Below, in pieces: positions 2,961 to 63,292 of a stretch of DNA of 64,000 nt. Numbering within the stretch: position 1 is the first letter of the stretch; the number at the start of each line of letters is the position of its first letter. The position numbers and the translations under genes were made by a program. Source of the stretch: Leptobrachium leishanense (lineage: Eukaryota; Chordata; Amphibia; Anura; Megophryidae); NCBI GenBank assembly GCA_009667805.1, contig CM019064.1:110768328-110832327 (forward strand), given 5' to 3'. The notes under the pieces were generated by a model. That model saw only the letters and a list, made by a program, of their open reading frames with translations, did not search any database and was not told the DNA's origin.

Positions 2961-3499
2961 GTTTGGTGGGAATAGTTTGAGGGGTTTACAGAATTTAATC
3001 CTTGGACCCAGGCAACGCTATGTCGTGGACCTGGCCTTGGCTCTATTCATAGGGCTACCCACTGCTGTGCGCCCTCTATTCATTGGCTGCATGCAAGCGT
3101 ACACCAGCTCTTCGTTGGCTGCGCTCTGCCTGGCACTTTATGAGACTTCATGGTAAGTAGTGATGGGCCGAACACCCCTGTGTTCGGTTCGCATTCGAAC
3201 TCGAACACCCAAAAAAGTTCGACCGCGAACTCGAACACAATGTGAACACAATGCAAGTCAATGGGGCTCGAACGTTCAAAAATTAAGGTCCCCTCCAAGA
3301 GGGCATAGATGCAAGTTATTGGCCATAAATGGTGTATGGGGGTCCGGGAACTGCCCTGGGGGACAGGAAACAATGAATTATTTAAAAAAAAAGAAAAAAG
3401 GTTTTAACCCTTTCACTGCTGAGTGCTAAGCCATTTCACTGCTGTGCGCAGAGCTAATTTTTGCCGCTTTTGCTCATGTTTAAACGCGATTTGAAGCCA

Positions 3500-5443: not shown

Positions 5444-5574
5444 TGGGCCATATTACATACTTGGTGCTAACTTAACCAGAGCTGTTGTAAACTTCCCAGA
5501 GCCTTAATAGCCTATGGAGGTTTAAGTTTACAACTGCTCTGGTTAAATTAGCACCAACATTGTAATATGGCCCT
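5444..5574. mobile_element. Palindromic MITE, 131 bp
   Basis: Ends are 'gggccatatta' and 'taatatggccc'. The arms pair through 'ggtgctaacttaaccagagc' and its reverse complement with a short centre, so almost the whole element is a hairpin. A diverged copy is at 287-410 and related phrases begin the element at 55133. Confidence 0.75.
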
Positions 5575-6090
5575 TTATAATTTGGAGAATCCATATAACC
5601 ATTTTTCTGAACACAAATTCACCAATAGTGGATGTTTTAGATACCTAGGGTGCACAGCGTGCAGCCACGTAACACCTGGCAAGGTGTTCTATCACCCACG
5701 TAATGGCAAAAAAAAACGGATTAGACACCACATCACATGCACAACGCCGTATGTGGTATATAAAATTCTATGCCCATGTGGATTAGCCTATGTAGGCAAA
5801 ACCATCAAAGGCCTTTGTGAACACCTTGCAAACCACCGTTCATCCATTAGGGCAGCCCTGGCAGGCCAAGACAGTGCCCAACCGGTGGCACGACATTTTT
5901 GGAGGTGCAACATCCATTGCCCTCACTCCGTGTGATGGCAATTGACCATGTCCCCCCCCTGACTAGGGGAGGTGACAGAGCGACTGTACTGCTTAAACAT
6001 GAATCCTTTTGGATTTTCACGCTGGAAACTATGAGGCCATTTGGCCTGAATGAAATCAATTCGTATACTGCTTTTCTATCTAGGCGCTGA
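5575..6090 (+). pseudogene. Penelope-like element, GIY-YIG endonuclease end, frameshifted
   Basis: Conceptual translation gives a Cys pair (GCTAC) about 40 residues before an ITC motif, then VVYKILCPCGLAYVGKT and an EHLANHRSSIR helix. This is the linker and GIY-YIG nuclease of Penelope-like retroelements, which nick the target DNA used to prime reverse transcription. A frameshift near 5900 moves the end into another frame, where HVPPLTRGGDRATVLLKHE and SFWIFTLETMRPFGLNE complete the family's C-terminus before a stop at 6088-6090. The reverse transcriptase that should precede it is absent, so the copy is 5'-truncated at the neighbouring MITE. It is not functional as read. It matters because Penelope-like elements are the known autonomous group that carries hammerhead motifs, and many such motifs occur in this window. 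Confidence 0.85.
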
Positions 6091-6727: not shown

Positions 6728-8372
6728 CAGTCAGGTCCAGAAATATTGGGACATCAACACAATTCTAACATCTTTGGCTCTATACACCACCACAATGGAG
6801 TTGGAATGAAACAAACACAATGTGCTTTAACTGCAGACTGTCAGCCTTAATTTGAGGGTATGTACATCCAACTCAGGTGAACGGTATAGGACTTACAGCA
6901 GTTTGCAGATGTGCCTCCCACTTGATAAGGGACCAAAGGTAATGGGACAGAATAATAATCAAATCAAACTTTCCCTTCTTAATACTTGGTTGCAAATCCT
7001 TTGCAGTCAATCACAGCCTGAAGTCTGGAACGCATATACATCACCAGACGCTGGGTTTCATCCCTGGGGATGCTCTGCCAGGCCTCTACTGCAACTGTCT
7101 TCAGTTCCTGCTTGTTCTTGGGGCATTTTCCCTTCAGTTTTGTCTGCAGCAAGTGAAATGCATGCTCAATGGGATTCAGGTCAGGTGATTTACTTGGCCA
7201 TTGCTTAACATTCCACTTCTGTCCCTTCAAAAACTCTTTGGTTGCTTTTGCAGTATGCTTTGGCTCATTGTCCATCTGCACTGTGAAGCGCCCTCCAATG
7301 AGTTCTGCAGCATTTGGCTGAATGTGAGTAGATAATATTGCCCGAAACACTTCAGAATTCATCCTGCTGCTTTTGTCAGCAGTCACATCATTAATAAACA
7401 CAAGAGAACCAGTTCCATTGGCAGCCATACATGCCCACGCCATGACACTACCACCACCATGCTTCACTGATGAGGTGGTATGTTTAGGATCATGAGCAGT
7501 TCCTTTCCTTCTCCATACTCTTCTCTTCCCATCACCCTGGTACAAGTTGATCTTGGTCTCATCTGTCCATAGGATCTTGTTCCAGAACTGTGAAGGATTT
7601 GTTAGGTGTTGTTTGGCAAACTCTAATCTGGCCTTCCTGTTTTGAGGCTCACCAATGGTTTACATCTTGTGGTGAACCCTCTGTATTCACTCTGGTGAAA
7701 TCTTCTCTTGATTGTTGACTTTGACACACATACACCTACCTCCTGGAGAGTGTTCTTGATCTGACCAACTGTTGTGAAGGGTGTTTTCTTCACCAGGGAA
7801 AGAATTCTTCGGTCATCCACCACAGTTGTTTTCTGTGGTCTCCCGGGTCTTTTGGTGTTGCTGAGCTCACGGTGCATTCCTTCTTTTTGAGAATGTTCCA
7901 AACAGTTGTTTTGGCCACACCTAATGTTCTTGCTGTCTCTCTGATGGGTTTGTTTTGTTTCTTCAGCCTAATGATGGCTTGCTTCACTGATAGTGACAGC
8001 TCTTTGGATCTCATCTTGAGAGTTGACAGCAACAGATTCCAAATGCAAATAGCACACTTGAAATGAACTCTGGGCCTTTTATCTGCACATTGTAATTGGG
8101 GTAATGAGGGAATATCACACACCTGGCCATGGAACAGCTGAGAAGCCAATTGTCCCATTACCTTTGGTCCCTTAACAGGTGGGAGGCACATCTGCAAACT
8201 GCTGTAAGTCCTACACCGTTCACCTGAGTTGGATGTACATACCCTCAAATTAAAGCTGACAGTCTGCAGTTAAAGCACATTGTGTTTGTTTCATTCCAAC
8301 TCCATTGTGGTGGTGTATAGAGCCAAAGATGTTAGATTTGTGTCAATGTCCCAATATTTCTGGACATGACTG
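6728..8372 (-). mobile_element. Tc1/mariner element with about 220-bp inverted repeats
   Basis: Terminal inverted repeats begin 'cagtcaggtccagaaatatt' and are flanked by TA on both sides (6726-6727 and 8373-8374). The repeats extend about 220 bp with few differences, the IR/DR-like long-terminal layout of many vertebrate Tc1 elements. The transposase remnant is on the minus strand. A second copy of the same family is at 55811-57371. Confidence 0.92.
6979..8014 (-). pseudogene. Tc1-family transposase, broken
   Basis: Cut-and-paste DDE transposase, normally about 340 residues; the coding span here fits 345. The N-terminus starts at the ATG for MRSKELSLSVKQ and holds the paired helix-turn-helix (IRETARTLGVAKTTVWNIL), then a GRPQK motif and second helix-turn-helix. 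The C-terminal 188 residues are one open frame (7545-6979) with the second catalytic Asp in QMDNEPKHTA and the catalytic Glu/Asp position in SPDLNPIEHAF, spaced D34E. Frame changes near 7850 and between 7623 and 7545 separate the parts, so the copy cannot make a full enzyme. Homologous C-terminus in the copy at 56821-57117 is nearly identical. Confidence 0.9.
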
Positions 8373-8381
8373 TATATCCAC

Positions 8382-8859
8382 TGTGAGCTGGGAAACAGGT
8401 AGCGGGTGCAATTGCTCTCTGGGGTGAGCACTCTTGAAAGGTTCAGAGACCAGACCAGTGACTTTTCTTCAAACGGGGGTACATTTATTGCAGCAACCCA
8501 CAGGTTATACACCACACTGTATATTGCTCAAAATAAACAGTTCAAAAGCAAAGAAAATTCCTAGCCGTGTCCCGGCACTAACTAAACATACAATAGCCCT
8601 GACTAACAACCTTTGCAAACCTAGTGTTTGTCAGGCTTCAGCAAACTAGCATGACCAACCTTGTGCTCCAGCAGATAGAGACCATCTGCTCCCCAGACTC
8701 CAGAGCGATGTCTGTTTGCCTCACCTGCACTAAATTGCCACTGAGGCAAAGTGCAAAACCAGGTGCTTAGAGGTTCCGGAAGGTGTAAGAGAGAAATCTG
8801 GGTGACACATAAACCCCGGAGAGGACCTTTCCTTGCTCTCTACATGATGCCCTGTTACA
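8382..8859 (-). repeat. 3' LTR of the Gmr1-like element
   Basis: 478 bp; on the minus strand it begins TGTAACAGGG and ends GCTCACA, giving TG...CA ends. It differs from the 5' LTR at three sites that I can see (two substitutions and one 1-bp indel). It begins only nine bases from the end of the Tc1 element. Confidence 0.95.
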
Positions 8860-8873
8860 TACCCTCCCCCCTT
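8860..8873 (-). promoter_or_regulatory. Polypurine tract
   Basis: On the minus strand, 'aaggggggagggta' lies directly before the 3' LTR, the place where plus-strand DNA synthesis is primed in LTR retrotransposons. Confidence 0.8.
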
Positions 8874-8884
8874 GTTTCAACCCC

Positions 8885-9520
8885 CTGGGTGGAACACTGT
8901 CAGCTACACAAGCGTAGACTCTGGACAGAGCATCTACATTGGCCATTTTTTTACCCGGGCGATGCTTCACAGTGAAGCTGTAGTCCTGCAATGCCAGAAA
9001 CCAATGGTTCACACGTCTATTGGTCTCCTTTTTTAGAGCCATCCATTTGAGGGGAGCATGGTCAGTCACCAGATCAAACTGGCGCCCTAATAAATAATAT
9101 CTTAAGGCATCCAATGCCCATTTAATAGCCAAACCCTCCTTCTCAATCACGGCATATTTCTGTTCATGATCGTTTAGTTTTCTGCTTAAGTACACTACAG
9201 GGTGTTCCTCACCATTATGTACCTGTGACAAAACTGCCCCTAGACCAACATCAGATGCATCAGTTTGGACTACAAAGTCCTTGGAAAAATCAGGGGAGTA
9301 GAGGATTGGCTGTGCACAAAGAGCCCTCTTCAGGACCTGGAAAGATTCCTCAGCTTCTGGGGACCATTTGACCATTAAATTCTTCCCTTTGGTAAGGTCT
9401 GTCAACGGGGCTGCAAGAGTTGCAAAGTTTGGGATAAACCTCCTGTAGTATCCCGTTATCCCAAGGAAAGCTCTGACTTGTTTTTTACTGGTGGACGTGG
9501 CCACTCCTGAATGGCTTCTA
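8885..9520 (-). pseudogene. RNase H domain of the Gmr1-like pol
   Basis: After the RT connection (GYYRRFIPNFATLAAPLTDL) the RNase H domain shows VQTDASDVGLGAVLSQ with the first catalytic Asp, EKEGLAIKWALDAL with the Glu, and LVTDHAPLKW with another catalytic Asp. It degrades the RNA strand of the RNA:DNA hybrid. The frame is offset from the upstream RT frame, with the change near 9480, and closes at 8767 through the polypurine tract into the LTR. Confidence 0.9.
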
Positions 9521-10103
9521 CTTTGTTTAGCTGGGGTTTTATGACTCCACGCCCAATCGTGTAACCTAAATTTTTGGCTTCCTCTAACCCCAGGGCACAT
9601 TTTTTTGGATTAGCAGTGATACCTGCTCTATGGAGAGTTTCCAAGACAGCTTGGACTCGAGGCAAATGATATTCCCAGTCAGTGCTATGTACTACGATGT
9701 CATCCAAGTATGCTGCTGCATACTGTTGGTGGGTCCTCAAAAGTTTGTCTATAGCTCTCTGAAATGTAGCAGGTGCATTTTGTAATCCAAAAGGCATCTT
9801 TTTATATTGAAACGAACCCTCAGGGGTTACGAAGGCCGTCTTCTCCTTGGCACCTTCTGTCAGGGGAATTTGCCAATATCCTTTGGTCAAGTCCAAAGTT
9901 GTCAAATAACGAGCTGTGCCCAGTCGGTCTATAAGTTCGTCTACCCGGGGCATAGGATAAGTGTCAAACTTGGTCACTGAATTGAGCTTCCTAAAATCAT
10001 TGCAAAACCTCCAACTCCCATCTGGCTTTGGGACTAGGACAATGGGACTGGACCAGTCACTACTGGACTCTTCAATGATGTCTAGCTCAAACATTTTCTT
10101 CAC
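9456..10103 (-). pseudogene. Reverse transcriptase domain of the Gmr1-like pol
   Basis: A 215-residue open segment with the Ty3/gypsy RT signatures in order: SSPIVLVPKPDGSWRFCNDF (about residues 18-37), LTTLDLTKGYWQI with a catalytic Asp near residue 71, FGLQNAPATFQ near 105-115 and the active-site YLDD at 132-135. The catalytic residues are intact. A one-base frame change near 10100 separates it from integrase and another near 9480 from RNase H, so the present copy would not give a full polyprotein. Confidence 0.92.
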
Positions 10104-11857
10104 CTCCCTACTGATGTCTTTCCTCCTGCCTCAGGAATACGGTAAGGTTTAAGTTTAACCCGTGCCCCTGGTTCAGTAACAATGTCATGTTGTGTTACCG
10201 ACGTCTGACCAGGCATCTCTGAAAATTTTTCTCGTTTTTTTATTAAAAACTCTCTGACTTCCTGCTCTTGTGACTTAGACAGCGACTCAGCAATTTTTAC
10301 TTCAGGGACCTGAGGGTGTTCAGTATCCAGCTGGTGGGTTATTGGGATGAACCCAGCAGCTAGCGATACTCTATCTTTCCAGGGCTTTAGCAAGTTCACA
10401 TGGTATATTTGCTCTGGTTTTCTTTTCCCTGGTTGGTGAATTTTATAATTTACTTCCCCAACTCTTTCTATCACTTCAAAGGGACCCTGCCACTTAGCAA
10501 GGAACTTGCTCTCAACTGTGGGAACTAATACCAGCACCCTGTCGCCAGGTGAGAAAATGCAGACTCGAGCATCCCTGTGATATATTCTCTGCTGAGCTGC
10601 CTGCGATTGAGCTAAATGCTCTTTTACAATTGGCATTACTACTGTAATTCTGTCCTGCATCTGCGAAATATGCTCAATAATGCTTTTGTGGGGTGTCTTC
10701 TCCCCCTCCCAGGTCTCTTTGGCTATGTCCAGAAGTCCCCGAGGGTGTCTCCCATAGAGTAATTCAAATGGAGAGTACCCTGTAGAGGACTGAGGAACTT
10801 CTCTGATGGCAAACATCAGATATGGAAGCAAATAGTCCCAGTTTTTCCCATCCTTGTCAACAACCTTTTTCAGCATGCTTTTTAAGGTTTTATTAAATCG
10901 CTCTACTAGTCCATCGGTTTGAGGATGGTATACCGAGGTTCGCAAATGCGTCACCTTAAACAACTTGCACAATTCTTTTGTCACTCGTGACATAAATGGG
11001 GTACCTTGGTCTGTCAGAAGGTCCTTAGGGATCCCGACCCGGCTAAACACCTGTAATAACTCCTTAGCTATATTCTTGGCTGATGTCTGGCGTAGGGGAA
11101 TTGCTTCAGGGTAACGGGTAGCGTAATCCATAACGACCAGGATATACTGATGCCCTCGGGCAGACTTCGGAAGCGGGCCCACAAGGTCCATAGCAATTCT
11201 CTCAAATGGCACCTTGATTATTGGCAAGGGTACTAAGGGACTCCAAAAATGAGGTAGGGGTGCAGACATTTGACAAACCGGACAAGATTTGCAATAGTTT
11301 TCAATATCTTTTTGTACCCCAGGCCAGTAAAACCTCTGTAAAACCCTTTCAGTGGTTTTCTCAGTACCTAAATGACCCCCCAATAAGTGTCCATGGGCAA
11401 GCTCCAATACCACCTTTTTGTACGGTTTGGGGACCACTAATTGCTCAATAATTTCATTGTTCTTTTTATACACACGATATAGCATGTCATCATTACTAAT
11501 GAAGTAAGGAAAAGAGAGCCTATTCCCTGGGTCAACAGGTTCCCCATTGATCATCATAACATTTTCCCAGGCCCTCACAAGAGTAGGATCCTTCCTCTGC
11601 TCACTACCAAAGTTCTCTCTATGAGTGTTAAGATCTGCAAACTCTAGAGTAGCTTCAGTTTCAACAGAGGGCGGTCTATCCTCATTGGCTATAGGGCCTT
11701 CAGACTCTTCCAATTCTCCTGCCAAAACAGAGAAGGGAAAGTCTGGGGACCCCCAAGAGGGATCCTCTGAATACAACTGCTCTGCAGCATTCATGTATTC
11801 AGATTCAGTCTCTGGTTTAGAAACTGTGGCACAGTCTGGGTGTTCCCAGAGTTCCAA
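10100..11857 (-). pseudogene. Integrase of the Gmr1-like pol, long open segment
   Basis: A 585-residue open segment. The zinc-binding HHCC domain is visible (H157-x4-H162 and C192-x2-C195), followed by the catalytic core with D224 in MDLVGPLP, D283 in LLTDQGTPF and E319 in TDGLVERFN, exact D,D35E spacing. A GPF-containing module (KWQGPFEVIERVG) near residue 470 matches the chromodomain-free GPY/F C-terminal domain. The segment continues into the linker before RT, so integrase precedes RT. The true N-terminus is upstream: frame breaks near 11860 and 11935 separate it from protease. All catalytic residues remain. Confidence 0.93.
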
Positions 11858-12929: not shown

Positions 12930-14773
12930 AAGATAGTTATCTGCCACCTCCACTCCCACAGGTCCCCTCTGCCACCCTCTGCCGCTTCCTCCCAGCCACT
13001 GAGGAGGAAGTCAATTCCTTAATGTCCTCTCACATCTCACCACGTGCCCGCTCGACCCCATTCCCTCACATCTAATTCTCCCCTCTCCTCCTCCCTCACC
13101 CCTGCTCTCACACACATCTTCAACCTATCTCTCTCCACTGGCTCCTTTCCATCTGCCTTCAAACACGCGCTAGTTACCCCTTTACTAAAGAAACCATCCC
13201 TAGACCCCAACTCTCCATCCAACTACCGCCCTGTATCCCTGCTTCCCTTCACATCAAAGCTCTTAGAAAAACTAGTCTTCAACCGCCTCTCCCTCTTCCT
13301 GTCCTCCAATTCCCTACTTGACCCCCTGCAATCTGGCTTCCGTCCCCTACACTCAACTGAAACTGCCCTCACCAAAGTCACCAACGACCTCCTAACTGCT
13401 AAAAAACACGGCCACTATTCTATTCTCATCCTGCTTGACCTCTCGGCTGCTTTTGACACTGTTGACCACCCCCTCCTTCTACAGACCCTCAACTGTCTGG
13501 GTCTCGGTGACACTGCACTTGCTTGGGTTGACTCCTATTTATCCAACAGGTCCTTCTGTTGTCCTTTGCTGGTAACTCCTCCTCTTCATTGCCTCTATCT
13601 GTTGGTGTACCTCAAGGCTCTGTCCTTGGTCCTCTGCTCTTTTCCATCTACACCTCCTCCCTGGGCAAAATCATCAACAGCTTTGGCTTTAATTACCACC
13701 TCTACGCTGATGACACTCAGATCTACCTCTCTACCCCTGATCTCTCTCCCCTGTCCTCTCAAAAGTCAGTGACTGTTTATCTGGCATCTCCTCCTGGATG
13801 GCCTCCCACCACCTAAAGATCAACATGTCAAAGACTGAGCTCCTACTTATTCCTCCCTCCAATGCCTCCCCACCTCCTGACTTCTCTATCACGGTGGAGG
13901 GTATCACCATCTCCCCATCAAACCAAGTTCGCTGTCTTGGAGTTACACTTGATTCTGCTCTTTCCTTCATCCCCCACATCCAGTCTCTTTCCTTCTCCTG
14001 CCGATACCAACTGCGTAATATTTCCAGAATTCGGCCATTTCTTACCGCTGTCACCACAAAACAACTCATACACGCCCTGGTAATCTCCCGACTCGACTAT
14101 TGCAATAATCTCTTATCTGGCCTCCCTCTATCCCGCCTCTCCCCCCTACAATCCATCCTGAACGCCTCCGCCAGGCTAATTCACCTCACCCGCCGCTCTG
14201 TCTCTGCCGCTCCCCTCTGCGAGTCCCTTCACTGGCTCCCCATCCACTGCAGAATTAAGTTCAAAATCCTTATCCTTACCTACAAAACCCTCACTAACTC
14301 AGCGCCCCACTACCTGTCCCCACTAATCACCAAATACACCCCAGCCCGCTCCCTAAGGTCAAACAGTGACCTGCGCCTAGCTTCTCCCCGTATCACCTCT
14401 TCCCATGATAGACTGCAGGACTTCACACGCGCAGCCCCCACTCACTGGAACGCTCTCCCTCGTACTGTCAGACTTTCCCCTAACTTCTCTTCCTTCAAAC
14501 GCTCCCTTAAAACGTTCCTATTTAAGGGAAGCCTACCACCCAACTCACTGACGCAACCATCAATCACTCTCACCTTACAGTCCTCTCCTCCTGTTTCCAA
14601 CCCCAACCCTCCTAGATTGTGAGTTCCTACGGGAATAGGGCCTTTATCTCCTCCTGTACTGTTTGTCAAATGTTGTTCAATGTATTGTAACCCTGTCTAT
14701 ACTGTGCTTATTGTACAGCGCTGCGGAATATGCTGGCGCTTTATAAATAAAGAATAATAATAATAATAATAAT
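12930..14773 (+). mobile_element. L2-type LINE, 5'-truncated
   Basis: Covers the last part of the endonuclease-RT linker, the reverse transcriptase and the 3' end. The 3' end reads 'gtacagcgctgcggaatatg', then 'ggcgctttataaataa', and closes with an AAT-type microsatellite, the usual L2 tail. A short second copy of the same 3' end is at 21320-21930. No target duplication is evident. Confidence 0.9.
13044..14622 (+). pseudogene. L2 LINE reverse transcriptase, frameshifted
   Basis: Three overlapping frames together give an RT. Frame one (13044-13560) holds [34 protein letters not shown] and [13 protein letters not shown], including a catalytic Asp. Frame two (13559-13770) holds [18 protein letters not shown] and the active site YADD. 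Frame three (13798-14622) holds the thumb and C-terminus, [14 protein letters not shown] onward, including LDYCNNLLSGLP and LHWLPIHCRIKFKILIL. The two frame changes, near 13560 and 13780, inactivate it. The motifs fit the L2/Maui group better than CR1; compare the CR1 copy at 17910. Confidence 0.9.
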
Positions 14774-17909: not shown

Positions 17910-19142
17910 CTACCTTGTGGATTCCCTTACATATTTAAATGTTTCTATCATATCTCCTCTGTCTCGTCTTTTTTCCAAGCTGTACATGTTAAGATCATTA
18001 AGCCTTTCTTGGTAACTTTTCTCCTTCAAGCCGTACACCATTTTAGTAGCCCTTCTCTGAACTCTCTCTAAGATGTCTATATCCTTCTGGAGATACGGTC
18101 TCCAGTACTGCACACAGTACTCCAAGTGAGATCTCACCAGTGCTCTGTACAGTGGCATGAGCACTTCCCTTTTCCTACTGCTAATACCTCTCCCTACACA
18201 ACCAAGCATTCTGCTAGCATTTCCTGCTGCTCTATTACATTGACTACTTACCCTTAGATCCTCTGAAATAATGACCCCTAAATCCCTTTCCTCAGATGTT
18301 GAGGTTAGGACTGTATCAAATATTCTATATTCAGCCCTTGGGTTTTTACGTCCCAGGTGCATTATCTTGCACTTATCCACATTAAAACTCAATTGCCACA
18401 ACTCCGACCATTTTTTTAGTTTACCTAAATCATTTGTCATTTGGCTGATCCCTCCAGGAACGTCAACCCTGTTGCAAATTTTTGTGTCCTCAGCAAAAAG
18501 ACATACTTTTCCATTAACACCTTCTGCAATATCACTAATAAAAATATTAAAGAGAATGGGTCCAAGTACTGACCCCTGAGGTACCCCACTGGTAACAAGA
18601 CCTTGCGCCGAATAAACTCCATTTACCACAACCCTCTGTTGTCTGTCACTTAGCCATTGCCTAATCCATTCAACAATATTGGAATCCAAACTCAAAGATT
18701 GCAATTCATTGATAAGCCTTCTATGCGGAACAGTATCAAAAGCCTTACTGAAATCTAAATAAGCAATGTCTACTGCACCACCTGTGTCTATTATTTTTGT
18801 TACCCAATCAAAAAAATCAATAAGATTAGTTTGGCATGATCTCCCTGAGGTAAACCCATGTTGTTTCTGATCCTGTAATCTATGTGTTTTTAGATGTTCA
18901 ACAATCCTTTCCTTTAACATGGTTTCCATTAATTTCCCCACTACTGACGTAAGACTAACTGGCCTATAGTTCCCCGATTCCTCCCTACTACCCTTCTTGT
19001 AAATGGGCACAACATTTGCTAATTTCCAGTCTTCTGGGACGACTCCTGTTAACAAGGATTGGTTAAATAAATCTGTTAACGGTTTTGCTATTACATCACT
19101 GAGCTCTTTTAATAATTTAGGATGGATCCCATCAGGCCCCAT
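17910..19142 (-). CDS. CR1 reverse transcriptase, long open frame with altered active site
   Basis: A 410-residue open frame with RT signatures in order: NYRPVSLTSVVGKLME (58-73), QHGFTSGRSCQTNLI (94-108), AYLDFSKAFDTVPH with a catalytic Asp (127-140), [16 protein letters not shown] (184-199) and FAEDTKI at 216-222. The family normally has F/Y-A-D-D; here the first Asp of the pair is Glu, which should impair polymerisation. The C-terminal thumb (LEYCVQYWRPY, RRATKMVYGL, LEKRRDRGDMIETFK) is intact. The start used is an internal Met; the real ORF2 began upstream (19794-19456 carries linker residues in another frame). Probably a dead copy with an unusually long surviving frame. Confidence 0.85.
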   Translation of the reverse strand: MGPDGIHPKLLKELSDVIAKPLTDLFNQSLLTGVVPEDWKLANVVPIYKKGSREESGNYRPVSLTSVVGKLMETMLKERIVEHLKTHRLQDQKQHGFTSGRSCQTNLIDFFDWVTKIIDTGGAVDIAYLDFSKAFDTVPHRRLINELQSLSLDSNIVEWIRQWLSDRQQRVVVNGVYSAQGLVTSGVPQGSVLGPILFNIFISDIAEGVNGKVCLFAEDTKICNRVDVPGGISQMTNDLGKLKKWSELWQLSFNVDKCKIMHLGRKNPRAEYRIFDTVLTSTSEERDLGVIISEDLRVSSQCNRAAGNASRMLGCVGRGISSRKREVLMPLYRALVRSHLEYCVQYWRPYLQKDIDILERVQRRATKMVYGLKEKSYQERLNDLNMYSLEKRRDRGDMIETFKYVRESTR

Positions 19143-19455
19143 TGACTTATTTGTCTTTACTTTAGACAGCTGCTTTAGAACCTCCTCCTCTGTAAACTCA
19201 TATGTAAATGTCTCTTTAGTGTTCTCTCCTAACTGAGGTCCCTTTCCTTCCTTTTCTTCTGCAAAGACTGAACAAAAATATTCATTGAGGCAGTCAGCGA
19301 GACTTTTATCCTCTTCTACATACCTTCCTTCCTTTGTTTTTAATCTAACTAATCCTTGTTTTACTTTTCTTTTCTCGTTTATGTATCTAAAAAATGTTTT
19401 GTCCCCCTTTTTTACTGACTGAGCTATTTTCTCTTCTGCGTGTGCTTTGAAGCTC

Positions 19456-19880
19456 TTATAAATTGCTTTGCCTCTTTCTGCCTAATCTTATAGGTTTGCC
19501 TATCCTCTTCACGCTGAGTTTTTTATAATTATTGAATGCTATCTTCTTGTTCTTCACTATTTTGGCCACTTCTGCAGAGTACCACAGTGGTTTCTTCCCT
19601 TTTTTGTTTTTGCTAACAAGCCGAATGCAATTTCCTGTGGCCTTCAATAATACTTCCTTTAAATAATCCCATTTCTCCTGGACTCCCTTTAAACTCCTCC
19701 AGTCTGATAATGACTCCTTCACACAAAATCTCATTTTAGAAAAATCTGTTTTTTTAAAGTCTAAAACTTTTGTTTTTGTGTGGTGCGGCTCCATCCCTTT
19801 CTTATATTAAACCATACTGATTGGTGATCACTAGATCCCAAATTTTCACCTACAACAACGTCCGATACCAAACAACCATT
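19456..19880 (-). pseudogene. CR1 endonuclease-RT linker, frameshifted
   Basis: Minus-strand translation gives SSDHQSVWF, the end of the CR1 endonuclease, and then MRFCVKESLSDWRSLKG and NKKGKKPLWYSAEVAKI, the typical linker. It ends at a stop at 19456 before the RT frame. One or more frame changes between 19456 and 19142 separate it from the RT. Confidence 0.8.
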
Positions 19881-21930: not shown

Positions 21931-22303
21931 TTGCCCCTGCTCACACATGGATGTATAGTGCCCAGCTCACACATGGATGTATAATGCCCAGCTAACACAT
22001 GGTTGTATCATGGATGTATAGTGCCCAGCTCACACATGGATTTACAATGCCCAGCTCACACATGGATGTATAGTGCCCAGCTCACACATGGATGTATAGT
22101 GCCCAGCTCACACATGGATGTATATTGCCACGCTCACACATGGATGTATATTGCCCAGCTCACACATGGATGTATAATGCCCAGCTCACACATGGATGTA
22201 TAGTGCCCAGCTCACACATGGATTTATAATGCCCAGCTCACACATGGATGTATATTGCCCAGCTCACACATGGATGTATACTGACCCCAGCAGCTCGGCG
22301 GCG

Positions 22304-22444
22304 GCGCTCCAGCGTGCCTTCCTGGGCCCCACGTGCACCCTGCATTGACACCGCCCCCCACGTGATGCGCGCATTTCACATGAGGGGGCAGCATCAATGC
22401 AGGGTGCACGTGGGGCCCAGGAAGGCACGCTGGAGCGCTGCTGC
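22304..22444. repeat. 140-bp hairpin near the end of the hAT-like element
   Basis: About 55-bp arms: 'gcgctccagcgtgccttcct' at the left is matched by 'aggaaggcacgctggagcgc' at the right, and the pairing continues through 'gtgcaccctgcattga'. GC-rich, able to form a stable cruciform. Confidence 0.85.
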
Positions 22445-26935: not shown

Positions 26936-27517
26936 ACCCCTTCCTGACTGCTGACGTACCATGTTCGTCTGATCAGGAAGTCTTCCTTACACCCACGGAC
27001 GTACATGCTATGTCAGTGTCCCCTAACCTCCCTCCCACCCTATACTTACCTTCCTCGCTGGGCTCCCACAGCAGACTGGCAGGCTGGAAGCCTTCCCTTC
27101 CTATTCAGGGGACCCAGCCGGCGCGATGACGTCATCACGGTGCATGATGACATCATCAGCAGGTGCCATCTGGCGCGTGCTGCAAAAATCAGGAAGGGGA
27201 GGGGGGCTCTTGTGGAGTCCTCTATCTCCCCAAATATTTTAGCTAGGAAACCCAATTTTTTTTATTATTATTATTTTTACACTAAACCTGGTCATGTTTG
27301 AAATCATTGGAAAGGCCTGATCACGGCCTTTCCAATGATACCAAACATGACCAGGTTTGGTGTAAAAATAATAATAATATATATATATATATATTTTTAA
27401 ATTGTCTGTGGGTTAATTAAATAGGACTTAAGCTGGCATCTAAAAATTATGAGCATAAAACGGTCAGAATGAGCTCCGCCCACAGAGGTGAACTGGCTCA
27501 GCAGTGAAGGGGTTAAA
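26936..27517. mobile_element. Element with 'accccttcctgactgctga' ends and a perfect-type hairpin
   Basis: Left end 'accccttcctgactgctga' and right end 'tcagcagtgaaggggtt' are near inverted copies. At 27272-27370, two 45-bp arms pair through 'aaacctggtcatgttt' and 'aaacatgaccaggttt' about a 7-bp centre. Fragments of the family occur at 3403-3497, 16437-16525 and, for the hairpin sequence, 37725 and 60180. Non-autonomous DNA element, superfamily unknown. Confidence 0.6.
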
Positions 27518-42689: not shown

Positions 42690-43480
42690 GCACATGCCTA
42701 ACATATATTGATATCTTTGTCCAGCTGGTTTGCCCTGCCATTGAACAATCACATCCCCTCAGTGCTCAGAAACCTCAATATATATGAACTGTTAGCTCTC
42801 CTTGAATTACAAAATAATGATAATGTGGTCATCAAATCATCACATAAGGGTAGAAATACTGTATCCATTGCTAGTTCTAACTATATCTCTCAATAAGTGA
42901 AAAGGGTGCACTGAAAATAAGGAGCAAAAAAACACCATAGCGTTATACTTAAACAACAATGAGTATAGTAACCCCTGCTGTGATTGTGTGCTTATAGGAT
43001 TAAAATCAATTTTATGCATATATAGAATACTCAGCCAAACTGGTCTCCAGCCTTGGACTCCGCGAATATTCCCAAGGAAGTATTTTGGATGAATATCCAT
43101 CCAGGTTCCGTTCTGGATCATAAATATAAAATGATCAAGGATAGGAGTAAAATAGAATTTAATAAAAGTAAAATCACTGAAACAATTTAAAAAGTTAAAA
43201 TAAATTAAAGTAAAAAGTAATGGAAGTCCTTAATCCAACATGTTTCGTCTTGGACCTCTTCAGGGGGTAACTATATCTGTATGACTTCTTCTAACTATAT
43301 TTGTATGACACACAAATTACTACAAGATGACAGTACATACAAAATCTTACAAAGGAATCCAACCACCAGGTATATGTCTCAGTTGTACCTGATACTACAG
43401 AGAGCAATGAAAACAAATTGAACTCTAATAGAGAATTCGAGCTCATACTGCCTAAAGATCCCACCATCGCCACATTTATT
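42690..43480 (+). pseudogene. Penelope-like RT N-terminal fragment, split by an insertion
   Basis: Translation before the break gives NVVIKSSHKGRNTVSIASS, corresponding to the Penelope-like motif around a conserved K-x-DKGG segment, here with DKGG decayed. After the insertion at 42889-43267, the frame resumes as MTHKLLQDDSTYKILQRNPT, the expected next block (tyrosine-rich helix then D/N-P-T). The RT palm with the catalytic Asp residues is not present. Match is from remembered family pattern, so moderate confidence. Confidence 0.5.
42889..43267 (-). mobile_element. 379-bp insertion with a hammerhead-like end and 11-bp target duplication
   Basis: Direct repeats 'taactatatct' occur at 42878-42888 and 43268-43278. 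At its right end, minus strand, 43263-43242 reads CTGAAGA, a 3-bp stem GTC/GAC, then GAAACATG. CTGAAGA and GAAAC are both canonical. The insertion interrupts a Penelope-like coding fragment. A short non-autonomous Penelope-type element is likely. Confidence 0.6.
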
Positions 43481-46106: not shown

Positions 46107-47723
<1,617 letters not shown>

Positions 47724-51130: not shown

Positions 51131-52438
51131 GACGATTCTTACGCTTCATTCCCTGTATGTTTGTCTGTATTGCAGGCCTATGTTGCGCCACTTGTTTCCC
51201 TCTGGAGTTCTGCCCTACAGGTTGCTCACTTAATCAGCTTCCCGATTTGCTTAACGAGTCCTCAGCCTGGGTACTCTGCATCTCGCATATTCTGTGCAAG
51301 TAAACCTGTCCGTCAATTCATTGAATCTATCAAGCCTCTATATAGAAGTCCTGCCCTGCAGGCTGCTGAATATAGAGAGTGCCAACGTTGTTTTGTTGAG
51401 AGCAAGTATAAAAGTATTTCCTCTAATATATATATACTTCATGCACCACGACTGTTGTTAAAAGCAATCTAAACAATATCAATAACCACGCTTTTCTGAC
51501 TCACGTTATGCTCAAGCCTTAAGTCTCTATATCTATGTACAAAGAGTTGAAGTGCTTTCGCTCTGCAGCCTCTTGGTCTTGAAACCAGTTGGTGTTGAGT
51601 GGTATTCAGGATTATGTAATGCCTCCCTGGTTTGGGACTTAAGGTATCACAGTGTTTTTTGCCTTGAACCTTCGTATTGTACTCATCTGTCCATTAAGAT
51701 CCAAACTACGCTTATCCTGGGTGAGCGCCATAGCGCCCGTTACAGTTGTGCTCCCAGCTGCACATATATTTATCTTCTGACTTACACTGCAGGACACAGA
51801 GTACAACATCATGCTAGTCATCATTATGACATCATATTTCCTCTCTAGATGTGGTCAGTATTTCAGAATGAAATAACAAGAGGAGAGAGGTGTGTACCAG
51901 AACGCACATACACCTCAACAACAAGAACCAGAACTAGGTTTACTTATACTTGCTGTATATAGGAGAAGGTAGACAGGACATAATTGTTAGGGATAAAGAG
52001 ATGCTGAGGTGAAAGGTGGAATGGATAATGATATGTGCGTATGATGGGTTATGAAATAAGAGTAAAACCAGGGGAAGAAAAGAATGTGGTGGGCACCAGT
52101 TATTGCAGTATTATAGTGGGGACAGACTATAACTGTGATGAAATTGGAGCAAAAAGGGATTGAGGTGTGGTACAGGGGCTGGGCAGTGCAATGAGGGAAT
52201 TTGGGTTTGTGAAATGGGACAGCAGAAATATGACAGGTGGTGAAGGGTTTGTGATGTGGGTGGGGAGGGTTGGAAGATGGCAAAAGCTTAAGTATGTACT
52301 GTAGAATGTAAGTTGATATGTGATAGTATCCAATTATGGGTATTGTTAATGAGTTATTTAATTATTAATATTTATTCTGTTTTTGATTTGTTGAAAAATA
52401 AACACAGACAGCATCCAAGTAACTTGGCCTCTAAATGA
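51131..52438. other. No gene seen
   Basis: No recognised coding region. The stretch 51990-52300 is purine-rich on the plus strand. Confidence 0.45.
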
Positions 52439-56505: not shown

Positions 56506-57117
56506 CAACAAAGCCTAACAAAGCCTTCACAGTTCTGGAACAAGATCCTATGGACAGATGAGACCAAGATCAACTTGTACCAGAGTGCAATGATCCACTG
56601 CTCATGATCCTAAGCATACCACCTCATCAGTGAAGCATGGTGGTGGTAGTGTCATGGCGTGGGCATGTATGGCTGCCAATTGAACTGGTTCTCTTGTATT
56701 TATTCATGATGTGACTGCTGACAAAAGCAGCAGGATGAATTCCTTGTGTTTCGGGCAATATTATCTGCTCACATTCAGCCAAATGCTGCAGAACTCATTG
56801 GACGGCGCTTCACAGTGTAGATGGACAATGACTCAAAGCATACTGCAAAAGCAACCAAAGAGTTTTTGAAGGGACAGAAGTGGAATGTTATGCAATGGCC
56901 TAGTCAATCACCTGACCTGAATCCCATTGAGCGTGCATTTCACTTGCTGAAGACAAAACTGAAGGGAAAATGCCCCAAGAACAAGCAGGAACTGAAGACC
57001 ATTGCAGTAGAGGCCTGGCAGAGCATCACCAGGGATGAAACCCAGCGTCTGGTGATGTCTATGCATTCCAGACTTCAGGCTGTGATTGACTGCAAAGGAT
57101 TTGCAACCAAGTATTAA
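56500..57117 (+). pseudogene. Tc1 transposase C-terminal remnant
   Basis: Open from 56821 to 57117 with the second catalytic Asp in MDNDSKHTAKATK and the third position in SPDLNPIERAFHLL, spaced D34E. Upstream residues (around 56560-56820) match the other copy but are broken by a stop at 56818-56820 and frame changes. The N-terminal DNA-binding part is replaced by the GC-rich insertion, so the copy is dead. Confidence 0.88.
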
Positions 57118-60607: not shown

Positions 60608-60620
60608 AGGAGGGTAAATT
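60608..60620. repeat. 13-bp direct repeat, left edge of the array
   Basis: 'aggagggtaaatt', identical to 62850-62862. Candidate target site duplication. Confidence 0.7.
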
Positions 60621-60830
60621 CAGTGAGAAATAAGGGGGGTGTTTGTGAGGGTCCTGAGAACGAGCAACAGCACAATGGCCTGCTCTACGTTGGGTGCCCG
60701 CTCAGGTCTCACAAACAAGGTTTTATCTTGATTGTGCCATTACAGGGATGAATTTTTCATATGCAAATCAGCCTGCTCTCACCCAGAAAGGGTGGCCAGT
60801 GCTGATTGCCAAGGACGTCATCCCTGCATG

Positions 60831-60906
60831 AGAGGTGCAGCAACCCCCGATGATCGTTTCGGCCTTATTGGGCCTCGTCAGGAGGGTATAGCTGACACCC
60901 CTCTAG
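60831..60906 (-). ncRNA. Hammerhead ribozyme copy 1 (type A)
   Basis: Minus strand: CUGACGA at 60881-60875; stem II GGCC/GGCC with loop CAAUAA at 60874-60861; GAAAC at 60860-60856; stem III with a 2-nt loop AU; predicted cleavage after C at 60849. Stem I pairs GGGGGU (60848-60843) with ACCCUC (60887-60882), then, past a UAU/U internal loop, GCUG with CAGC, and CACC and UCU with GGUG and AGA around small bulges. One flaw: stem III has a C-A mismatch, so the cleavage triplet is AUC where GUC is usual. It should be slow but the fold is intact. Confidence 0.85.
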
Positions 60907-61161
60907 GCACATCAAGCAAGGGGTCCACGTCTGGATGACCCTTTACAATTACAGTGAGAAACAAGGGGGGTGTTTGTGAGGGTCCTGAGAACGAGCAACA
61001 GCACAATGGCCTGCTCTACGTTGGGTGCCCGCTCAGGTCTCACAAACAAGGTTTTAGCTTGATTGTGCCATTACAGGGATGAATTTTCCATATGCAAATC
61101 AGCCTGCTCTCACCCAGAAAGGATGGCCAGTGCTGATTGCCAAGGACGTCATCCCTGCACG

Positions 61162-61236
61162 AGAGGTGCAGCAACCCCGGACGATCGTTTCGGCCTTATT
61201 GGGCCTCGTCAGAGGGTATAGCTGACACCCCTCTAG
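61162..61236 (-). ncRNA. Hammerhead ribozyme copy 2 (type B)
   Basis: Same core. Stem III is perfect (ACG-AU-CGU) with a GUC cleavage triplet, cleavage after 61180. Stem I is weaker beside the core: position 1.1 is C, and one G is lost from the 5' strand, shifting the pairing register. Confidence 0.85.
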
Positions 61237-61490
61237 GCACATCAAGCAAGGGGTCCACGTCTGGATGACCCTTTACAATTACAGTGAGAAACAAGGGGGG
61301 TGTTTGTGAGGGTCCTGAGAACGAGCAACAGCACAATGGCCTGCTCTACGGTGGGGCCCGCTCAGGTCTCACAAACAAGGTTTTAGCTTGATTGTGCCAT
61401 TACAGGGATGAATTTTCCATATGCAAATCAGCCTGCTCTCACCCAGAAAGGGTGGCCAGTGCTGATTGCCAAGGACGTCATCCCTGCATG

Positions 61491-61566
61491 AGAGGTGCAG
61501 CAACCCCCGATGATCGTTTCGGCCTTATTGGGCCTCGTCAGAAGGGTATAGCTGACACCCCTCTAG
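61491..61566 (-). ncRNA. Hammerhead ribozyme copy 3 (type A)
   Basis: Like copy 1, including the C-A mismatch in stem III. A G-to-A change on the plus strand at the stem I 5' side (agaaggg) alters one base pair. Predicted cleavage after 61509. Confidence 0.85.
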
Positions 61567-61821
61567 GCACATCAAGCAAGGGGTCCACGTCTGGATGACC
61601 CTTTACAATTACAGTGAGAAACAAGGGGGGTGTTTGTGAGGGTCCTGAGAACGAGCAACAGCACAATGGCCTGCTCTACGTTGGGTGCCCGCTCAGGTCT
61701 CACAAACAAGGTTTTAGCTTGATTGTGCCATTACAGGGATGAATTTTCCATATGCAAATCAGCCTGCTCTCACCCAGAAAGGATGGCCAGTGCTGATTGC
61801 CAAGGACGTCATCCCTGCACG

Positions 61822-61897
61822 AGAGGTGCAGCAACCCCGGACGATCGTTTCGGCCTTATTGGGCCTCGTCAGGAGGGTATAGCTGGCACCCCTCTAG
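61822..61897 (-). ncRNA. Hammerhead ribozyme copy 4 (type B)
   Basis: Perfect short stem III and GUC triplet, cleavage after 61840; C-C mismatch at the first stem I pair; rest of stem I intact. Confidence 0.85.
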
Positions 61898-62152
61898 GCA
61901 CATCAAGCAAGGGGTCCACGTCTGGATGACCCTTTACAATTACAGTGAGAAACAAGGGGGGTGTTTGTGAGGGTCCTGAGAACGAGCAACAGCACAATGG
62001 CCTGCTCTACGTTGGGTGCCCGCTCAGGTCTCACAAACAAGGTTTTATCTTGATTGTGCCATTACAGGGATGAATTTTTCATATGCAAATCAGCCTGCTC
62101 TCACCCAGAAAGGGTGGCCAGTGCTGATTGCCAAGGACGTCATCCCTGCATG

Positions 62153-62228
62153 AGAGGTGCAGCAACCCCCGATGATCGTTTCGGCCTTATTGGGCCTCGT
62201 CAGGAGGGTATAGCTGACACCCCTCTAG
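62153..62228 (-). ncRNA. Hammerhead ribozyme copy 5 (type A)
   Basis: Identical to copy 1 across the ribozyme, cleavage after 62171. Copies 1 and 5 also share 'ttttatcttgattg' upstream, marking them as the same higher-order position. Confidence 0.85.
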
Positions 62229-62483
62229 GCACATCAAGCAAGGGGTCCACGTCTGGATGACCCTTTACAATTACAGTGAGAAACAAGGGGGGTGTTTGTG
62301 AGGGTCCTGAGAACGAGCAACAGCACAATGGCCTGCTCTACGTTGGGTGCCCGCTCAGGTCTCACAAACAAGGTTTTAGCTTGATTGTGCCATTACAGGG
62401 ATGAATTTTCCATATGCAAATCAGCCTGCTCTCACCCAGAAAGGATGGCCAGTGCTGATTGCCAAGGACGTCATCCCTGCACG

Positions 62484-62559
62484 AGAGGTGCAGCAACCCC
62501 GGACGATCGTTTCGGCCTTATTGGGCCTCGTCAGGAGGGTATAGCTGACACCCCTCTAG
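62484..62559 (-). ncRNA. Hammerhead ribozyme copy 6 (type B)
   Basis: Same as copy 4, cleavage after 62502. Confidence 0.85.
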
Positions 62560-62813
62560 GCACATCAAGCAAGGGGTCCACGTCTGGATGACCCTTTACA
62601 ATTACAGTGAGAAACAAGGGGGGTGTTTGTGAGGGTCCTGAGAACGAGCAACAGCACAATGGCCTGCTCTACGGTGGGGCCCGCTCAGGTCTCACAAACA
62701 AGGTTTTAGCTTGATTGTGCCATTACAGGGATGAATTTTCCATATGCAAATCAGCCTGCTCTTACCCAGAAAGGGTGGCCAGTGCTGATTGCCAAGGACG
62801 TCATCCCTGCACG

Positions 62814-62849
62814 AGAGGTGCAGCAACCCCCGACAATCGTTTCGCCCTT
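62814..62849 (-). pseudogene. Truncated hammerhead, edge of the array
   Basis: Only GAAAC, a stem III (ACG-AU-UGU with GUC triplet) and the GGGGG side of stem I remain. CUGACGA and most of stem II are missing, so this copy cannot cleave. Its 3' half lacks the type A and type B defects. Confidence 0.8.
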
Positions 62850-62862
62850 AGGAGGGTAAATT
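62850..62862. repeat. 13-bp direct repeat, right edge of the array
   Basis: 'aggagggtaaatt', identical to 60608-60620. Its first nine bases also occur in every complete unit, at the 5' side of stem I. Confidence 0.7.
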
Positions 62863-63292
62863 CCCCTGCAGACCACAACCACCGTGAGGAGCCAATGGTG
62901 CTTTTACAGTGGAGCTTGCAGCACTGATCTTGCGGTCTTCATGTGCTGTAAGAGGAGAGGGTCCTACAAAACAAAGACGTTATCAATTAAAATATTAAGA
63001 TTACCCAATCATACCATGAGAAACCTTATATAGCTTCAATATATCTCATGTAAGCCAACTCTTGAATATCCTCTCAGCTATCTACACATGCTAATAACAA
63101 ATCACCTATGTGCTACATAAATCATGGACAAAGCATTTGGAAAACCAAAACATAAATATAATTTAGGAGACCTAGCTGGACTTGGATCCAACCCTTCCTA
63201 GGTTCTATAGGCTGCATCCCAATGGAGATCTGTACCTGATTACTCTATATTGCTAGTTTATATTCACTGAAAAGCTAGACTTTAGGGGTTAT
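62863..63292. other. No gene seen
   Basis: AT-rich DNA between the array and the next repeat. Confidence 0.5.

Follow-up and report, generated by a model that had tools for sequence, protein, structure and literature searches.

Introduction

Close counterparts of the repeat studied here are known among amphibian retrozymes. According to the available text of Cervera and de la Pena (PMC7229834), axolotl Rtz_331 / HHR_Amex1 and newt satellite 2 combine, as does the frog repeat, a type I hammerhead with a tandem repeat of ~330 bp and many dispersed copies; their stem III is a very weak one with a palindromic loop, and the amphibian ribozymes work as dimers. The same text states that the target-site duplications of animal repeats, when present, exceed 4 bp, and it names LINEs and, more strongly, Penelope-like elements (PLEs) as candidates for the return of animal retrozymes to chromosomes; duplications are given there, with no junction map. 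Repeat-associated, interspersed hammerheads were described from Xenopus tropicalis in 2011 (PMC3088659, available part), and the accessible portion of PMC8490949 reports one schistosome satellite element with a duplication, as well as inverted repeats within elements. As far as the available text of PMC4918200 and PMC7761336 goes, plant LTR retrozymes are likewise non-autonomous, hammerhead-bearing and copied via circular RNA, as we infer for the frog repeat, whereas they are described as having type III hammerheads, LTRs, a primer binding site, a polypurine tract and duplications of 4 bp, against 14 bp here.

PLEs, which differ from retrozymes in encoding their own enzyme, furnish the other line of comparison. 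In the accessible parts of the respective papers, Anolis Poseidon (PMC11167929) and Adineta vaga Penelope (PMC3846280) jointly resemble the frog copies described below in a fixed internal start of reverse transcription, extension of both target strands, AT-rich targets, partial tandems, inverted head-to-head terminal repeats and target-site duplications, with a hammerhead also in the Anolis RNA. The in vitro work of Frangieh et al. (PMC11167929, available text) has the anole PLE start at a fixed internal RNA position and cut and extend both strands with no need for homology; for the Adineta elements, whose inverted terminal repeats are accompanied by duplications of 8-10 bp, self-priming is the cause preferred in the available text of PMC3846280.

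The present study concerns a 64-kb stretch of frog DNA (the window), in which a sequence-only reading had recognized a vertebrate retrozyme-like array with bounded ends. This assignment is upheld by Rfam matches, an exact 14-bp duplication, the frog host and dispersed copies, and the repeat displays traits of non-LTR retrozymes: a canonical type I hammerhead, a unit of 331 bp within the 150-450 bp range, and dispersed copies with duplications >4 bp. Compared by description only with the available account of axolotl Rtz_331, the frog unit matches it in length, palindromic stem III and looped stem I. It departs from the retrozymes of PMC7229834 (available text) in its frog host and in a unit GC content of 52-53.5%, against <50% for animal retrozymes; we take the latter value as a group trend rather than a defining trait, with the frog unit lying above it. 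The expectation that such an array would extend the known hammerhead group was partly pre-empted by the Xenopus tropicalis repeats, which likewise come from a frog, are interspersed and carry hammerheads, whereas the accessible part of PMC3088659 gives no description of arrays, ends or insertion mode. Since retrozymes and frog hammerhead repeats are in print and the PLE architecture is known, the new part is the insertion mode. Hence, we treat retrozymes in axolotl, hammerhead repeats in Xenopus and the two-armed architecture of PLEs as known, and the retrozyme insertion mode as new evidence. The available text of PMC7229834 contains no mention of head-to-head arms or of a fixed internal start such as the frog copies have, and a two-armed insertion mode for retrozymes was not found in the literature searched, which comprised main texts only and few subscription journals.

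The hammerhead array of the window

A single tandem array occupies positions 60617-62850 (period 331, 6.8 copies, 97% matches by TRF over the 64-kb window). It is a one-way series of about 6.7 units of a 331-bp repeat, six of them complete (331, 330, 330, 331, 331 and 331 bp) and followed by a 245-bp partial unit, and it is bounded at both ends by an exact 14-bp target-site duplication. The first 9 of the 14 bases also occur inside four units, so part of the right copy could be taken for unit sequence; the complete 14-base sequence is confined to the two ends. The features are as follows (position in the window, strand, description; unit starts are set by anchor).

60608..60621, no strand: left target-site duplication copy, AGGAGGGTAAATTC; exact repeat at 62850-62863; the last base also fits unit column 1
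60621..60951, minus: unit 1, B type
60622..60634, minus: putative cDNA start, unit columns ~2-13, from clean priming ends and RNA-3'-side edges
60843..60887, minus: type I hammerhead of unit 1 (Rfam, 31.7 bits)
60952..61281, minus: unit 2, A type
61174..61218, minus: type I hammerhead of unit 2 (Rfam, 35.4 bits)
61282..61611, minus: unit 3, B type
61503..61547, minus: type I hammerhead of unit 3 (Rfam, 27.7 bits)
61612..61942, minus: unit 4, A type
61834..61878, minus: type I hammerhead of unit 4 (Rfam, 34.3 bits)
61943..62273, minus: unit 5, B type
62165..62209, minus: type I hammerhead of unit 5 (Rfam, 31.7 bits)
62274..62604, minus: unit 6, A type, the reference unit
62414..62421, no strand: octamer ATGCAAAT, unit columns 141-148, candidate enhancer of an snRNA-type promoter; conserved in diverged copies
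62496..62540, minus: type I hammerhead of unit 6 (Rfam, 34.3 bits)
62605..62849, minus: partial unit 7, stopping inside hammerhead stem II (RNA 5' side); set by anchor and duplication boundary
62850..62863, no strand: right target-site duplication copy, exact match to the left copy

The tandem array with one minus-strand type I hammerhead per complete unit had been proposed from the letters alone, and the Rfam model RF00163 (Hammerhead_1) indeed matches the minus strand of all six complete units. Relative to its gathering score of 34 bits, three units lie above (35.4, 34.3 and 34.3 bits) and three below (31.7, 31.7 and 27.7 bits; E 0.00065 to 0.013); hence the covariance-model check that had been suggested does not place every unit below threshold. 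Stem II, its 6-nt loop and the GAAAC are as originally described. Stem III, which had been drawn as a stem with a 2-nt loop, is better read as the 8-nt self-complementary palindrome ACGAUCGU; in the modelled self-duplex it yields -10.0 kcal/mol for the A and genome forms, -4.8 for the B form and -5.8 for the truncated unit, and would be able to pair between two ribozymes. The predicted segmentation of stem I holds as well, with several paired segments around internal loops in all six units (duplex -29.3 to -30.6 kcal/mol). The predicted cut lies between unit columns 229 and 228, which by alignment corresponds in unit 2 to the step between 61180 and 61179.

All six complete units deviate from the common genome form, and two types alternate: the three A units carry C228G, which leaves the first stem I position unpaired, and the three B units carry C231T, which breaks one stem III pair. 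Judged by these changes, the ribozymes in the window are weaker than those of the common genome form. Since each complete unit has a change unpairing a stem I or stem III position, the array in the window would probably yield few 331-nt circles.

The octamer ATGCAAAT lies at the same place in the other units and is kept in diverged copies. Newt satellite 2 reportedly has an snRNA-type promoter with such an octamer element, and by analogy the frog octamer possibly acts as an enhancer of a promoter of this type.

Dispersed copies across the genome

Across the 3.54 Gb searched, at least 57 type I hammerheads were found at E <= 1e-3 (Rfam; 74 scored of 424506 candidates); all 57 matches listed exceed the cut-off, and none of them is a unit of the window. 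The genome search proposed for the unit likewise recovers dispersed copies, unit 6 having at least 121 DNA matches, many at 98-99% (40 scored of 2041 candidate places), and for a single 21-base hammerhead variant there are 228 occurrences in the genome; these copy-number figures are lower bounds or candidates. We fetched 40 loci, chosen by hammerhead score, which account for 41 of the 57 Rfam matches, the remaining 16 lying outside the sample. The highest scores (48.8 bits at L001, 46.9 at L002-L007) surpass the window's best of 35.4. Conservation in diverged copies is highest over the hammerhead, columns 222-266 (0.946), with columns 131-155 nearly equal (0.944); this hammerhead value says nothing on selection because the loci were picked by hammerhead score. 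The exact 26-base hammerhead core has no match in viral contigs and none in genome contigs, both being collections without frog genomes.

The 331-bp unit is present in 38 of the 40 loci and absent from L023 and L029, which hold isolated type I hammerheads (3433-3477 with 42.6 bits and 3340-3384 with 39.8 bits, respectively). These two hammerheads are 90% alike over 48 bp in otherwise dissimilar surroundings and, by analogy, are possibly the frog equivalents of the conserved vertebrate hammerheads in introns that the available part of PMC3088659 discusses.

Against this genomic background the alternation of A and B in the window can be examined further. The unit pairs U1/U5, U2/U6 and U4/U6 differ at a single site each, and U3/U7 at 5 of 246. 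The A change C228G has 8 genome matches, 3 of them in the window array, and the B change C231T, a CpG transition, occurs 228 times in the genome; among 116 typed unit pieces, a set that includes the window and derives from the score-picked loci, neither change was seen outside the window. The simplest reading of these sequences is that the alternation arose by local block duplication after insertion, and a mixed template is a possible source. A multimeric circle was considered as a possible cause, permutations of the unit order giving 0.03 to 0.06; local duplication fits at least equally, the A allele being nearly confined to the window array. On the choice between a circle and an uncut multimer as template, the evidence points both ways. 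Over the full units of 12 young elements, the window included, the mean difference is 2.7% within and 3.9% between elements, which favours one source per element; in the other direction, some elements (L011, L046; column 111) combine alleles that are widespread in the genome.

A common start zone and run-through of the ribozyme cut

The RNA-3'-side outer edges of the copies are strongly concentrated: 51 of 63 fall in columns 316-331/1-25, i.e., in 41 of the 331 columns (binomial 3e-35), and 12 lie outside this start zone. Where a duplication sets the boundary of the priming end, 19 of 24 ends gave a clean alignment, and each of the 19 lies at columns 0-13. That search covered only the neighbourhood of column 1, so that the edge count provides the fair test of a common start; 5 of the 24 ends were not cleanly aligned, and the set left out L021, L027, L042 and every element with <11 shared bases. 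Taken together, these ends suggest that copying began at columns ~2-13 in the window copy and in most sampled copies.

Relative to the hammerhead, this start lies 215-228 nt downstream of one cut; measured from the 3' end of a cut monomer, it lies 103-116 nt inward. The RNA-5' ends of the 51 arms that begin in the zone are not distinguishable from a uniform distribution (KS p 0.33), with 2 of 51 at <=10 columns from the hammerhead cut. Of these arms, 41 are longer than 235 nt and therefore run through the cut, and 29 exceed 335 nt. The clean priming ends share a mean of 1.42 nt with the RNA (controls 0.375), whereas the anole PLE start needs no homology in the available text of PMC11167929. 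ATT shows no clear enrichment close to the priming end (11/24 vs 108/384), and a conserved entry signal is not favoured since in diverged copies columns 1-30 are the least conserved (0.78 vs 0.88-0.95 elsewhere).

Two-armed copies, duplications and an empty site

Some copies consist of two arms joined head-to-head, and the polarity of the joints is one-sided: 19 have their RNA 3' ends outward (plus arm then minus arm) and 1 is inward, the latter sitting in L031, a complex locus. A first arm mapping also showed a small second arm in L012, which is missing from the later mapping. Further joints at four otherwise unsampled loci, scored by eye with ~50 bases visible beyond each match, are all outward (4 vs 0). 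At 12 of the 19 two-armed loci both outer edges fall in the start zone, the exceptions being L009, L027, L031, L033, L035, L037 and L043; the 12 loci suggest that both target strands were primed. None of the 19 outward joints brings together arm columns within 20 of each other.

The ends of 18 of 45 elements share >=11 bp, two of these being TA repeats, as against 8 of 1968 cross-locus pairs. Without the TA repeats there remain 16 duplications of 11-18 bp with 70% AT, longer than the 8-10 bp given for Adineta PLEs in the available text of PMC3846280. The clearest event is L016, where two arms lie between copies of ATGTGCCAGAGATT; its joined flanks are continuous in L015, which represents the empty site (97.5% over 314 bp) with one copy of ATGTGCCAGAGATT. 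For the window copy no empty site emerged, its flanks matching only themselves in the genome. A second candidate, the L018 flanks against window 51545-51746, is 83.7% alike with a differing duplication and was not counted.

Penelope-like elements of the same genome

The window itself contains a plus-strand reading frame at 5552-5935, without Pfam match, whose motif we take to be the GIY-YIG of a PLE. At least 150 of its relatives were scored among 20790 candidates, some with open frames of ~800 aa. Neighbouring matches within 15 kb form 16 pairs: 15 are head-to-head and have their 3' ends outward, 1 is tandem and none is inward. We fetched seven PLE 3' ends and sorted them into four groups according to how closely they match the query; each of the seven has a minimal hammerhead (pattern match). 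All seven also adjoin (TA)n (L053-L055 by eye), as against 2 of 18 duplication-bearing retrozymes, and by this count a target preference common to the two was not found: frog PLE ends run into (TA)n, whereas the retrozyme targets differ. In comparisons of the start zone with these four frog PLE groups, no similarity was significant (shuffle p between 0.06 and 0.68, vs p <= 0.007 for PLE-PLE comparisons) and no common start motif was found. Overall, retrozyme insertion resembles in its working that of a PLE.

In one PLE group, L049-L052, there are two alternative end sites 75 nt apart (L049 and L051 vs L050 and L052), resembling the optional 'tail' known in other PLEs. Elsewhere in the window, at 43242-43263 on the minus strand, a hammerhead-like core, CTGAAGAG...GAAAC followed by ATGTTGG, resembles the minimal hammerheads of the fetched PLEs and is perhaps a decayed PLE remnant.

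Proposed mechanism and its alternatives

The fold, the dispersed copies, the duplications, the start zone, the arm polarity, the run-through and one empty site together lead us to regard it as probable that this is a frog non-LTR retrozyme inserted by target-primed reverse transcription, with one or both cut ends priming at a fixed internal RNA site and a PLE-type helper as the likeliest enzyme. Briefly, the minus strand of the 331-bp repeat would be transcribed into RNA of one or more units; this would be cut by the type I hammerhead of each unit, its weak palindromic stem III favouring pairing of two ribozymes, and the monomers, by analogy with axolotl, would probably be ligated into circles. 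A staggered cut, usually at an AT-rich place, would expose two 3' ends ~14 nt apart, of which one or both would prime at the fixed site (columns ~2-13), >200 nt downstream of the hammerhead cut. Copying would then pass the cut site, often for more than one lap, which implies that the template was a circle or an uncut multimer. When both ends prime, the two cDNAs would meet and produce a head-to-head element; when one primes, a one-way array such as that of the window would result. As such steps are PLE habits, a PLE-type enzyme appears the likeliest candidate helper.

The chief alternative is that a LINE enzyme moves the repeat and that the inverted arms are 5' inversions due to twin priming. 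In LINE fashion, the duplications measure 11-18 bp and the priming ends show microhomology; the available text of PMC4918200 likens the 15-bp duplications of Nematostella repeats to LINE insertions, and two of the window's reading frames are of LINE type and contain a reverse transcriptase domain. One of them is 97% identical to a protein of the megophryid frog Leptobrachium leishanense, a match that also points to Leptobrachium or a near relative as the probable host. In L1 twin priming, the outer end of the inverted piece falls at a varying internal RNA position. Such variation is at odds with the 12 two-armed loci at which both RNA-3'-side outer edges lie in one zone, and we consider the LINE alternative unlikely as an account of the family, while some of the other 7 loci may be of this kind. 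The head-to-head shape could also be generated through self-priming by fold-back of cDNA or antisense RNA, as favoured for rotifer PLEs of the same shape from palindromes at their joints (PMC3846280, available text). Yet fold-back should join equal columns, and the lack of any outward joint within 20 columns makes a simple version of it highly improbable, even slightly more so than the satellite scenario considered next.

That scenario treats the repeat as satellite DNA of the ordinary kind, which unequal crossing-over spreads and in which the hammerhead is a passenger. The A/B alternation, the near-identical unit pairs and an A allele almost confined to the window array are of the kind that it would produce, and look like local block duplication after insertion; the duplications, the empty site, the common start zone and the one-sided polarity speak against it. 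Unequal crossing-over may have contributed to growth of the window array, and is very improbable as the source of the family. The least credible proposal, to which we give almost no weight, is that the templates were linear hammerhead-cut monomers copied from their 3' end. Such a monomer is the simplest ribozyme product, but the starts lie well inside its 3' end, hardly any arm ends near the cut, and the 41 of 51 arms long enough to cross the cut refute it for most sampled arms.

Target-primed insertion at a fixed internal RNA site, with a PLE-type helper, is thus the reading that we retain, and in it the ends of the frog copies record insertion itself: one start zone, both strands apparently primed, and a template continuous through the ribozyme cut. 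This junction record makes the question of the helper testable with purified PLE protein and retrozyme RNA, and retrozyme copying would be one way in which tandem and palindromic repeats originate in large amphibian genomes. More tentatively, and with somewhat less than even confidence, we suggest that animal retrozymes are moved by Penelope-type machinery that primes on a circular RNA from both staggered-cut ends, using a single entry site, and that two-armed, multi-lap copying rather than unequal crossing-over was the original source of the tandem and head-to-head hammerhead satellites of vertebrates.

Other features of the window

Pfam transposase, integrase/RNase H and reverse transcriptase domains occur at 6979-7656, 8767-9606, 10100-11857, 13023-13769, 17910-19478, 46496-47206 and 56821-57114; going by their domain content, these regions are assigned as Tc1-like, Gypsy-like and LINE remnants. 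Long hairpins at 22303-22437, 5453-5565 and 27285-27357 score below the cut-offs of microRNA families and are probably palindromic transposon remnants.
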